Below are positions 6,109 to 57,375 of a stretch of DNA of 64,000 bases, one piece after another (within the stretch, counting starts at the first letter, position 1; the number at the start of each line of letters is the position of its first letter). Under the pieces are notes generated by a model, which searched no databases, was not told where the DNA came from, and saw nothing but the letters and a program-made list of their open reading frames with translations. Source of the stretch: Limnobacter thiooxidans (GTDB taxonomy: Bacteria; Pseudomonadota; Gammaproteobacteria; Burkholderiales; Burkholderiaceae_B). The position numbers and the translations under genes were made by a program. The stretch lies in NCBI RefSeq assembly GCF_036323495.1, contig NZ_AP028947.1, positions 62,001-126,000 of the forward strand. The letters run 5' to 3'.

Positions 6109-6325
6109 CATTGAACTGTTTTGACTTTTGCGCTGAGCCCGCAGTGTCCCATCTGACCGAAAACTTGGCTTCTCGACTTTGCATGTTGAGTCGTACTAAG
6201 CCAAGCCCTCCAAAAAAGAAGGTCGGGTCTTGGCTTTTGCTGTCGCGACCGTTTGAACTCAACATACAAAGTCGGCAAGTTTTCTGATTGGTCAGCCGCG
6301 ACAATTTCGACGTTCAGCTCAACGT
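6109..6325 (-). repeat. Long hairpin element, copy E of family II
   Basis: This fills most of the 420-base gap between the convergent DUF3567 and MFS genes. Read on the minus strand it has a closing stem TGACC/GGTCA (6290-6294 with 6154-6158), a 5-base one-sided bulge, and the core stem GAAAACTTG/CAAGTTTTC (6276-6284 with 6159-6167). A nearly perfect 18-base stem follows (6257-6274 with 6174-6191), then a small GTCGCGAC palindrome (6242-6249) and an apical hairpin (6225-6236 with 6198-6208) with a T-rich loop. The order of parts matches copies A-D. Outer weaker pairing extends to about 6109 and 6325. No protein-coding signal is convincing here. Confidence 0.8.
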
Positions 6326-7741: not shown

Positions 7742-7983
7742 ACCCGAGTTTGGTTAACTCGCCTGCTGGTTAAATGCCCATTCAGCGCGAATTTCAATCG
7801 CTCGCCTGAAAACCTGTAGATCCCTTTTTGAAATTCACATTGACTCAACACACTCGACAAAAAGGACGGTCGAGTGTGTTGTCGGCTTGCAGCCGAACGC
7901 TGCATGTTAATTCAAACGGGCAGGTTTTCTTGAATGGCGAAGCTATTGGAACCTCGCTGCTGAATGGGCTGAAACTTGGTGGC
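7742..7983 (-). repeat. Long hairpin element, copy A of family II
   Basis: This sits just upstream of the MFS start. On the minus strand a 15-base terminal stem (7954-7969 with 7776-7790) leads to the closing pair CGCC/GGCG, a one-sided TTCAA bulge and the perfect 9-base core stem GAAAACCTG/CAGGTTTTC (7921-7929 with 7808-7816). Two apical hairpins follow: CGGCT/AGCCG (7883-7895) and a perfect 12-base stem (7869-7880 with 7847-7858) with loop CGTCCTTTTT. The h1 region and the core are close in sequence to copies C and D, while the second stem is unrelated in sequence but still pairs. Weaker pairing of CCGAGTTT with AAACTTGG suggests the outer limits. Confidence 0.85.
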
Positions 7984-8139: not shown

Positions 8140-8384
8140 GAACCGGCTGCTTCAAGGTCTTCCCGGCAGTGCGCTTGCCTGTTCCGCACATCCAGGAAAA
8201 CCGCCCCGTTTGAAACAAGGCTTCAATGCTCGCCAGAAGGTGAAACCGAGGGCGACACATCAACCCGACCGTCTGTTTTGTCGGGTTGACGTGAATGCAA
8301 AGCCTTGTTTCAAAAAGGGATGAGCGGTTTTCTGTGCGGGATCGGGCAAGGCACGCCGGGGAGGCCTAAACAGAAGCCTGGTTC
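8140..8384 (+). repeat. Long hairpin element, copy B of family II
   Basis: On the plus strand a roughly 50-base interrupted stem (8140-8189 with 8334-8384) ends in CCGCAC/GTGCGG. An ATCCAG bulge and core stem GAAAACCGC/GCGGTTTTC (8196-8204 with 8324-8332) follow, then a perfect 15-base stem TTTGAAACAAGGCTT (8209-8223 with 8300-8314). The apical hairpins are TCGCC/GGCGA (8230-8255) and TCAACCCGAC/GTCGGGTTGA (8260-8289) with loop CGTCTGTTTT. A short direct repeat GGGATCGGGCAAG occurs at 8339 and again near 8392. With copy A this explains most of the 760-base gap 7675-8434; 7984-8139 shows nothing I can name. Confidence 0.85.
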
Positions 8385-52202: not shown

Positions 52203-52420
52203 GGCGCTTCGTTGCGCAGGCTCTTTTCGGTGTTCGTTGCAGTTCATCTTGCCTTGGACAAGCCTGATTTCCCGTCTTGTTGATTCTTGCTTGGGGAATA
52301 CGAAACGCGTGGCGTCTTCGCATCGATTGCTTGCGCAATCGCCCCTCGCTGCGAATCAGCCGGGAAGCCCTGCCCCGAATCGGCAAGATGATGCAGCAAA
52401 CGAACACCTCACAGGCTGCG
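52201..52420 (+). repeat. Family I structured repeat, full copy
   Basis: Outer arms GTTCGTTGCAGTTCATCTTG (52232-52251) and CAAGATGATGCAGCAAACGAAC pair as a long stem. An inner stem CTGATT...GATTC with GAATCAGCCGGGAAG follows, and two small hairpins fill the centre: TACGAA/TTCGCA and CGATTGCTTGCGCAATCG. The copy at 56.9 kb has the same plan with many changes. Just outside, GCGCAGGCT and AGGCTGCG extend the pairing. It starts at the end of the PepSY gene, in the 545-base gap before the convergent TonB receptor gene. Confidence 0.8.
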
Positions 52421-52502: not shown

Positions 52503-52745
52503 CAAGCCTCAGGCGTAGAGCTCCTTCAAGTTTGCAAAGGCAGCATGGCCCTCGTAACGCCATTCAAGAAAGCCTGCCCGTTTTGAATTCACACGCCACG
52601 TTCGGCTGCAAGCCGACACCGTGTTCGGCCATTCCTTTTGCCGAACCACGGTGAGTCGGTGTGAGTTTAAAAAAGGGAAAGACAGGCTTTCTGGCGGAAG
52701 TAGGGCATGCGCCTTGCAAACTAAAGAAGGTCATGCGCCTTGAAG
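52503..52745 (+). repeat. Long hairpin element, copy C of family II
   Basis: Outer arms AAGTTTGCAAAGGCAGCATG (from 52529) and the complementary CATGCGCCTTGCAAAC region (about 52707-52722) pair. The closing stem CGCCA/TGGCG (52558-52562 with 52692-52696), a TTCAA bulge and the core stem GAAAGCCTG/CAGGCTTTC (52568-52576 with 52683-52691) come next. Hairpin 1 is TCGGCT/AGCCGA (52602-52616). Hairpin 2 is CCGTG-TTCGGC with GCCGAA-C-CACGG (52619-52651), loop CATTCCTTTT. It ends two bases before the TonB receptor stop codon. ORFs across it on either strand are shadows of the palindrome. Confidence 0.88.
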
Positions 52746-56879: not shown

Positions 56880-57070
56880 TCGATGTTCGTTGCTGCTCAT
56901 CCTGCCTTGGTCAAGGCTGATTTCCCGGCTGGTTGATTCTGGCTTGGGGAATGCGAAACGCGATCGCGTCTTCGCATCGATTGCTTGCGCAATCGCCCCG
57001 CGCTGCGAATCAGCCGGGCAGCCTTGCCCTGAATCGTCAAGATGATGCAGCAAACGAACATCTCGCAGGC
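56880..57070 (+). repeat. Family I structured repeat, full copy
   Basis: Arms GTTCGTTGCTGCTCATC (56885-56901) and GATGATGCAGCAAACGAAC (57041-57059) form the base stem. CAAGGCTGATTTCCCGGC pairs with GCCGGGCAGCCTTG in the middle. ATGCGAA/TTCGCAT encloses the palindrome ACGCGATCGCGT, and CGATTG/CAATCG forms the second hairpin. Direct repeats GCCTTG at 56904 and 57021 match the deletion junction of the 50.5 kb copy. It lies in the 540-base gap between regA-like and the convergent TonB receptor gene. Confidence 0.8.
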
Positions 57071-57134: not shown

Positions 57135-57375
57135 AGCGATTAACAGGCGCTGCCCGTTCAGTTTGCAAAGGCAGCATGGCCCTCGTACCGCCATTCAGGA
57201 AAGCCTGCCCGTTTTGAATTCACACGCCACGTTCGGCTGCAAGCCGACAACGGGTTCGGCCATCTGTTTTGCCGAACCCGGTGAGTCAGTGTGAATTTCA
57301 AAAAAGGGAAATACAGGCTTTCTGGCGGAAGAGGGCATGCGCCTGAGCAAACTAATGAAGGGCATGCACCAAGTG
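57135..57375 (+). repeat. Long hairpin element, copy D of family II
   Basis: Very close to copy C in the arms. The closing stem is CGCCA/TGGCG (57189-57193 with 57323-57327) and the core stem GAAAGCCTG/CAGGCTTTC (57199-57207 with 57314-57322). Hairpin 1 is TCGGCT/AGCCGA (57233-57247). Hairpin 2 is a perfect 10-base stem CGGGTTCGGC/GCCGAACCCG (57251-57280) with loop CATCTGTTTT. The outer arm AGTTTGCAAAGGCAGCATGG pairs with the downstream GCATGCGCC-GCAAACT region. Differences from C in hairpin 2 are compensated on both sides. Confidence 0.88.

Follow-up and report, generated by a model that had tools for sequence, protein, structure and literature searches.

Long two-bulge hairpins with changing stems, mostly in back-to-back pairs, scattered through Limnobacter genomes

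A hairpin of about 240 nt lies between genes at positions 57135 to 57375 of a 64,000-nt stretch of the Limnobacter thiooxidans genome (the window, hereafter), and the question it raises is what could hold a fold in place whilst the letters of its stems change. The first-pass annotation had claimed five intergenic copies of one family in the window, A to E, with a common layout of an outer stem, a one-sided 5' bulge, a core stem beginning GAAARC and two apical hairpins, and had proposed that the fold and not the sequence was under selection. All five were found at the coordinates it gave and all share the design, although E proved to be only distantly related (41 bits with the covariance model R1, 78.6 bits with R2). 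Copy D itself (+ strand, D type, core stem GAAAGCCTG/CAGGCTTTC) has its two-bulge core at 57193 to 57323 (+), where a structure-only scan and the consensus place the 5' bulge, core stem, 3' bulge and two apical hairpins; D, the one copy of the five that was z-scored, had fold z values of -9.4 (own strand) and -9.6 (opposite strand), none of 200 shuffles being as stable. Copy C (52503 to 52745, +) is a further D-type hairpin. Copies A (7742 to 7983, -, A type, GAAAACCTG/CAGGTTTTC) and B (8140 to 8384, +, B type, GAAAACCGC/GCGGTTTTC) form the left and right halves of an A-B unit, and E (GAAAACTTG/CAAGTTTTC) lies at 6109 to 6325 (-), with no partner hairpin seen. The placing of A and E on the - strand, with R1 matches at 7794-7943 and 6145-6298, corrects the first reading. 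Copy D has a divergent partner of F type, alike in layout and different in sequence, at 56885 to 57059 (-), and C has one at 52232 to 52405 (-); both were recognised by folding the antisense strand, D's partner also by alignment with the relative G009, and neither is itself listed by R1 or R2.

What stays constant across the types is a core stem of about 9 bp with a 5' bulge (mostly ATTCA) at its foot and, above it on the opposite strand, a 3' bulge 4-6 bases long, together with the two apical hairpins. The layout as first described is present in alignments made from sequence alone, and so is the T-rich loop of about 10 bases on changing stems, which was recovered both from 43 own cores and from 12 B-like cores. 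This loop is usual in types A, B, D and E and not in F; the F hairpins by C and D have the 5' bulge GATTCA and the 3' bulge GGGAAATCA in common with D, and little stem sequence. Across the types aligned here, the two bulges and the layout are conserved more than the loop, which the first reading had missed.

A DNA search of the single-contig genome (3,536,915 bp) with D as query gave 50 matches, 40 of 82 candidates being scored. Covariance models, the check that the annotation had suggested, found 86 copies (R1) and 97 copies (R2, trained on 95 own matches), in each case among the best 150 candidates scored. The expectation of further copies in related genomes was borne out by R1, which matched 12 of the 15 congeners, G014 among them with no better than E 7e-4. 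Pattern matches fell in records of L. parvus, L. alexandrii, L. sp. MED105, L. sp. 130 and L. sp. CACIAM 66H1. On the sequence evidence, then, about a hundred long hairpins with one two-bulge shape and changing stems, mostly in back-to-back pairs, are scattered in Limnobacter genomes. Outside the genus, R1 had matches in none of 298 genomes of the order, and R2 in one of 252 genomes of the family (G504, at 40.7 bits); these absences are weak because about ten candidates per genome were scored and strict filters applied. No plasmid match was obtained for D, and viral spread was not supported, none of four exact pattern matches in viral contigs being matched by R1 at E<=0.1. Rfam 15 gave no match at gathering in the window, and at E<=1 it gave one for the F-D unit (E 0.82, far below its cut-off) and none for the A-B unit. 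Among the matches listed from the open-access literature, the best of many thousand and most of them without Limnobacter, the excerpts hold no account of Limnobacter hairpin repeats.

The usual unit, as read from neighbouring matches, is two hairpins of the same shape and different sequence pointing apart, an arrangement absent from the first reading. Own-genome R1 neighbours within 1.5 kb were divergent in 27 of 28 cases and tandem in one, and in 80 stretches of other genomes all 42 near neighbours were divergent, or 41 of 41 once L191, a single palindrome matched on both strands, had been dropped. Thirty of the 86 own R1 matches had no neighbour inside 1.5 kb, and several of these gained a divergent partner at a lower threshold. 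Pair members are unlike in sequence (A with B, A with E-like, D with F), and the A-B partner types recur in 14 of the 15 pairs looked at. For the 13 units common with G009, those for which a G009 stretch was available, the median identity is 0.89 for the hairpins (n=26) and 0.49 for the spacers (n=13). In two cases a long-gap hairpin pair encloses genes: at L035:2848-3799 (genome 3291847-3292798) those of an NlpC/P60 protein and a 163-aa protein, and at L025:24-1186 those of a Peptidase_C92-like (C92-family) protein and a 204-aa protein. The G009 counterparts of both pairs have gaps of 138 and 104 nt; the junction of the NlpC/P60 site, read against G009, has GCAAT on each side of the insert, and a third genome (L139) has related genes there. 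A separate observation concerns tandem arrays (period 15 or more), which start near the 3' edges of 35 of 94 own hairpins (94 of the 95 matches), e.g., at L003:1251-1461; they reach 11.7 copies of 25 bp, and the D-type repeat unit is the outer stem arm.

Many of these sites are common to several species. For 39 of 57 own clusters, some other genome has both flanks together in a single stretch that carries an element, with identities of 71-99%, and the same is true of 24 of the 28 clusters of a - and a + hairpin; the comparison covered element-bearing stretches only, with vacant sites uncounted. The 57 are 61 clusters minus four without both neighbours called, and three of them are halves or neighbours of one unit (L035 twice and the second hairpin of L004). 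The longest interval between clusters, 450 kb at genome 2186-2642 kb, is without an R1 or R2 match.

At particular sites hairpins have been replaced or lost. The flanks of the D site were matched in seven of 16 genomes searched: our genome and G009 carry F plus a hairpin in the D position, with different top halves, G005 and G012 retain F next to what is left of a broken D, G011 has a single hairpin oriented the other way, G006 has a scar and G008 nothing, so that the hairpins are not essential at this site, G008 and G006 being without them. At the C site, matched in 10 of 16 genomes, G009 has F only, G011 a single other hairpin and G008 an F-like hairpin in opposite orientation, whilst there is no intact readable hairpin in G005, G006 and G013 and other downstream DNA in G007, G014 and G015. 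The single hairpins in opposite orientation, in L278 (G011, D site) and L287 (G008, C site), may be inversions via the hairpin's own arms. At a third site, followed through seven genomes, A is missing from one genome and B from another, while one carries an A with a different core; short direct repeats, unequal in length, border both losses, which look like slippage. No clean vacant site with a fixed target duplication, of the kind expected of a MITE, was seen at the three sites read. At locus 166920 and the D site, comparison with G009 shows near-identical arms and core stem with the top half replaced, and at only 10 of the 27 sites with an available G009 stretch is the orthologous hairpin closer than the best own paralogue, from which it follows that copies exchange material. 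The persistence of the hairpins at shared sites, together with their being better kept than the spacers, suggests a role in place.

Whether the fold itself is maintained was asked of alignments built from sequence alone, A2 with 43 own cores (39 A/C/D-like and four with a B-like core stem) and A3 with 12 B-like cores, for which structures were hand-written from folds and RNAalifold. In A2, 27 of 50 pairs were changed on both sides and 94.5% of cells were paired; in A3 the values were 19 of 53 and 95.4%, and none of 500 shuffles reached the values of either. With the structures slid along the alignments the paired cells drop to 28-46%, a control that is partly circular because the aligned copies helped define the structure. 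A further alignment, A4, of 114 R1 matches in 80 pattern-hit stretches of other genomes (some stretches being without a match) had 42 of 50 pairs double-changed, again with 0 of 500 shuffles, in an alignment fitted to the model. Double changes grew with more copies, the opposite of the outcome that would have counted against the first reading.

The order in which these changes arise can be followed by divergence. Among changed pairs the double-changed numbered 0 of 34 at 96-99% identity, 9 of 166 at 93-96%, 126 of 789 at 90-93%, 299 of 1209 at 87-90% and 454 of 1253 at 85-87%, the copy pairs in this series not being independent of one another. Single-sided changes come first and doubles follow with divergence, and stepwise compensation therefore fits better than instant templated repair. 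This bears on the reading in which the hairpins have no function, being long palindromes that owe their perfect pairing to template-switch repair and their likeness to one another to gene conversion. Such a process would be at home with the few sites at which the orthologue is nearest, with the replaced top halves, and with the slippage-like deletions and tandem arrays. However, templated repair should yield doubles from the start, whereas the changes at high identity are single-sided; repair also acts equally on both strands, contrary to the mismatch excess described below, and would not retain two one-sided bulges, so that we regard this reading as very improbable.

Mismatches also bear on which strand folds. 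Model-fitted counts were set aside because they are biased towards G-U, and a strand-symmetric count of single mismatches inside otherwise perfect helices was used. It gave 135 G-T against 68 A-C, or 93 against 48 distinct contexts (p=2e-4, only a guide because the cells are related by descent), with 36 GG+TT against 38 CC+AA as the composition control. The other genomes contributed 75 G-T against 30 A-C (27 vs 13 in the A/D class, 38 vs 16 in the B-like and 10 vs 1 in the remainder), and the own copies 60 against 38 (22 vs 21, 16 vs 11 and 22 vs 6, respectively). The sequence-only alignment A3 had 27 G-T and 8 A-C, and the sequence-aligned A2 no excess (32 vs 29). With G-T over A-C at about 2:1, it is probable that one strand folds. 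The claim that the fold is kept rather than the sequence is strengthened by the rise of double changes with divergence and by this excess on the hairpin's own strand, which stands overall and fails in the own A/D class taken alone. In 35 of 48 units (p=0.002, post hoc) the own A/D hairpin strand is co-oriented with the replication fork, oriC having been put close to position 1 on the basis of dnaA, DnaA boxes and GC skew; replication polarity is given no weight here because it was noticed before testing and related sites are not independent. A mutation bias between replication strands would be a poor explanation of the excess, given that partners lie on opposite strands, that both other-genome classes lean alike and that the own B-like hairpins run mostly against the fork (8 of 27 with it), though the excess in these own B-like copies taken alone is small (16 vs 11).

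An excess in the A/D-like and B-like hairpins of other species, on opposite strands, is what would be expected if each pair were transcribed outward into structured RNA of a dedicated family, with ordinary duplication as its only mobile history, and the stepwise compensation would also suit such a family. We nevertheless consider this unlikely. No sigma-70 promoter pattern was found in the F-D and A-B units, nor a conserved promoter in the spacers of one locus across seven genomes; the spacers are poorly conserved, Rfam gave no match at gathering, and the own A/D class has no excess.

The genes around the hairpins, called with a home-made ORF and codon-usage caller, point to where a role in place might lie. 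Convergent genes flank 36 of the 57 own clusters and divergent genes one, where the background has 30 convergent cases among 190 pairs of adjacent genes. Single-hairpin clusters between co-directional genes show no sense preference, with four sense and four antisense, two of these eight being halves of the L035 cargo pair. The role in place suggested above would most simply be exerted in transcripts running off convergent genes. The same location might be explained by bidirectional intrinsic terminators, and the F-D unit does contain three terminator-like sites where 0.8 are expected, one of them inside D (57243-57260, +) with the conserved T-rich loop as its T-tract. However, the A-B unit has two against 1.1 expected, neither unit has such a site at its 3' foot, a perfect alternative stem ahead of the T-rich loop occurs in just 22 of the 142 copies with a recognisable loop (of 209), and G008 does without hairpins at the convergent site of D. 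That the hairpins are terminators is thus extremely improbable in our estimation.

A stronger competitor is the view that the hairpins are purely mobile, marking the two ends of a non-autonomous element that a putative recombinase moves in the form of folded single-stranded DNA, the convergent-gene excess then reflecting tolerance and the single hairpins being remnants. It would take in the pair as the usual unit and the recurrence of A-B units with the same partner types, the two long-gap pairs that carry genes where G009 has short gaps, the alignment of the A/D strand with the fork (itself post hoc) and the strand-specific G-T excess. Against it, the clusters at shared flanks give little sign of recent movement and the hairpins are better kept than their spacers at fixed sites. 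The search for a mobiliser, which covered the Y1 transposase and reverse transcriptase families, found no Y1 transposase (PF01797) in 15 of 16 Limnobacter genomes including our own, the exception being G009, in a search whose control was positive in five of 14 named genomes; reverse transcriptase (PF00078) was absent from our genome and present in five of 16. Mobilisation by a RAYT/Y1 enzyme is thus unsupported, as is a retron or other reverse-transcribed RNA. We regard movement alone as a possible explanation and a rather doubtful one.

REPs and REPINs are the nearest parallel among known systems. In PMC3116915, PMC8266576 and PMC3733652 they are described as intergenic palindromes of high copy number, often in inverted doublets with singlets as remnants, found mostly where the neighbouring genes are unidirectional or convergent; recognition of E. 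coli REPs depends on both the mismatch bulge and the strand, and compensatory stem changes are reported for REPINs. The Limnobacter hairpins resemble REPINs and BIMEs, so far as those descriptions go, in being intergenic, many-copy and in inverted doublets (27 of 28 own, 41 of 41 elsewhere). The same papers give REPs a size of 20-40 bp and a GTAG or CGTC tag, the GTAG REPs accompanying RAYT transposases (PMC3116915, PMC8266576, PMC3733652). By that description the Limnobacter hairpins differ in their size of about 230 nt, their two bulges and two apical hairpins, the sequence-unlike partners and the lack of a Y1 transposase in the own genome. As for tags, no GTAG and one CGTC were found at the outermost folded pair in 94 of the 95 own matches, a pair that lay mostly in flanking DNA (median span 354 of about 370 nt) and so did not mark the foot of the hairpin. 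We do not class the family as REPIN because of its size, the missing Y1 transposase and the sequence-unlike partners. The CGTC-1 dimers of H. neapolitanus are described as two short hairpins in a longer palindrome, with the stem GAAAaACC/GGTaTTTC and an unpaired stretch on the 3' side; that palindrome is 41 bp long and from another bacterial class, and the comparison is by description only, so that kinship is a lead (PMC3733652).

We tentatively favour, at a little under even chances, the reading, built from the sequence patterns set out above, that the Limnobacter units are REPIN-like paired foldback elements now kept as 3'-end structures in transcripts. The paired unit would first have spread as mobile foldback DNA in the manner of REPINs, with a mobiliser other than the Y1/RAYT transposase, and would now mostly persist where it is, as a structure carried by transcripts that read through the 3' ends of genes, where the divergent arrangement would give each direction of transcription one hairpin in sense. 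The two bulges flanking the core stem may be what a host protein recognises in the folded single strand, and top halves may be exchanged between copies by recombination or gene conversion.

Integron attC sites likewise consist of a folded single strand in which some bases are extrahelical and the terminal structure varies, with structure conserved over sequence. The attC sites sit in cassette arrays, whereas the Limnobacter hairpins are dispersed and mostly in divergent pairs, and the likeness is by analogy only. Repeats of the ERIC, YPAL and NEMIS type are generally single palindromes of one sequence family; the Limnobacter units differ in being unlike hairpins in divergent pairs, with mainly the layout and bulges in common. 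Those repeats are intergenic hairpins of 100-200 bp that have been likened to non-autonomous mobile elements.

If the layout matters more than the letters, relatives may be sought by shape. A scan for a 5' bulge of 4-7 bases, then at least six stacked pairs, then a 3' bulge of 4-6 bases found 11 hairpins in 264 kb of our own genome, all known members, where the model knows 13; both members in L044 were missed. It matched in only one of eight G014 stretches containing R2 matches, and its misses therefore carry little meaning. In 584 kb of G504, which belongs to another genus of the same family, it gave seven matches: five that share the layout and have A(T/G)TCAG as their bulge letters, one that is an antisense reading of one of these, and one weak. 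Among the five is a divergent pair with folds (z -11.0 and -13.0) of the architecture seen in Limnobacter, and a scan without the length limit added one long candidate in L317. Outer-arm arrays stand on both sides of a G504 hairpin at L314:1740-2340. The same scan of 400 kb of G017 gave no matches, and that of 400 kb of G016 gave seven, six of which resemble a different long-palindrome family. In G016, of another genus in the same family, dispersed near-perfect palindromes of about 240 nt (e.g., L340:11050-11289 and L347:8131-8370) apparently make up that different family.

We would propose, with more doubt than confidence, a previously unreported class of nucleic-acid modules defined by shape: a core stem of about 9 bp bracketed by two opposite one-sided bulges whose letters are conserved (5' A-T/G-TCA, 3' A-rich), with exchangeable apical domains, arranged in divergent pairs, its folded single strand bound by a putative protein, and present in at least two genera of one family. 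Such a class would have escaped notice because the stem sequences do not align.

The Limnobacter hairpins provide a natural experiment in which one fold is kept whilst its letters change and whole domains swap, at sites that species of the genus have in common and with a strand that can be read from the mismatches. They suggest that dispersed structured repeats can form a shape-based superfamily that sequence searches would almost entirely miss, and that a genome in which no Y1 transposase is detectable can hold REPIN-like doublets. Should a binding protein be found, it would give access to a new system, either of mobility or at RNA 3' ends.
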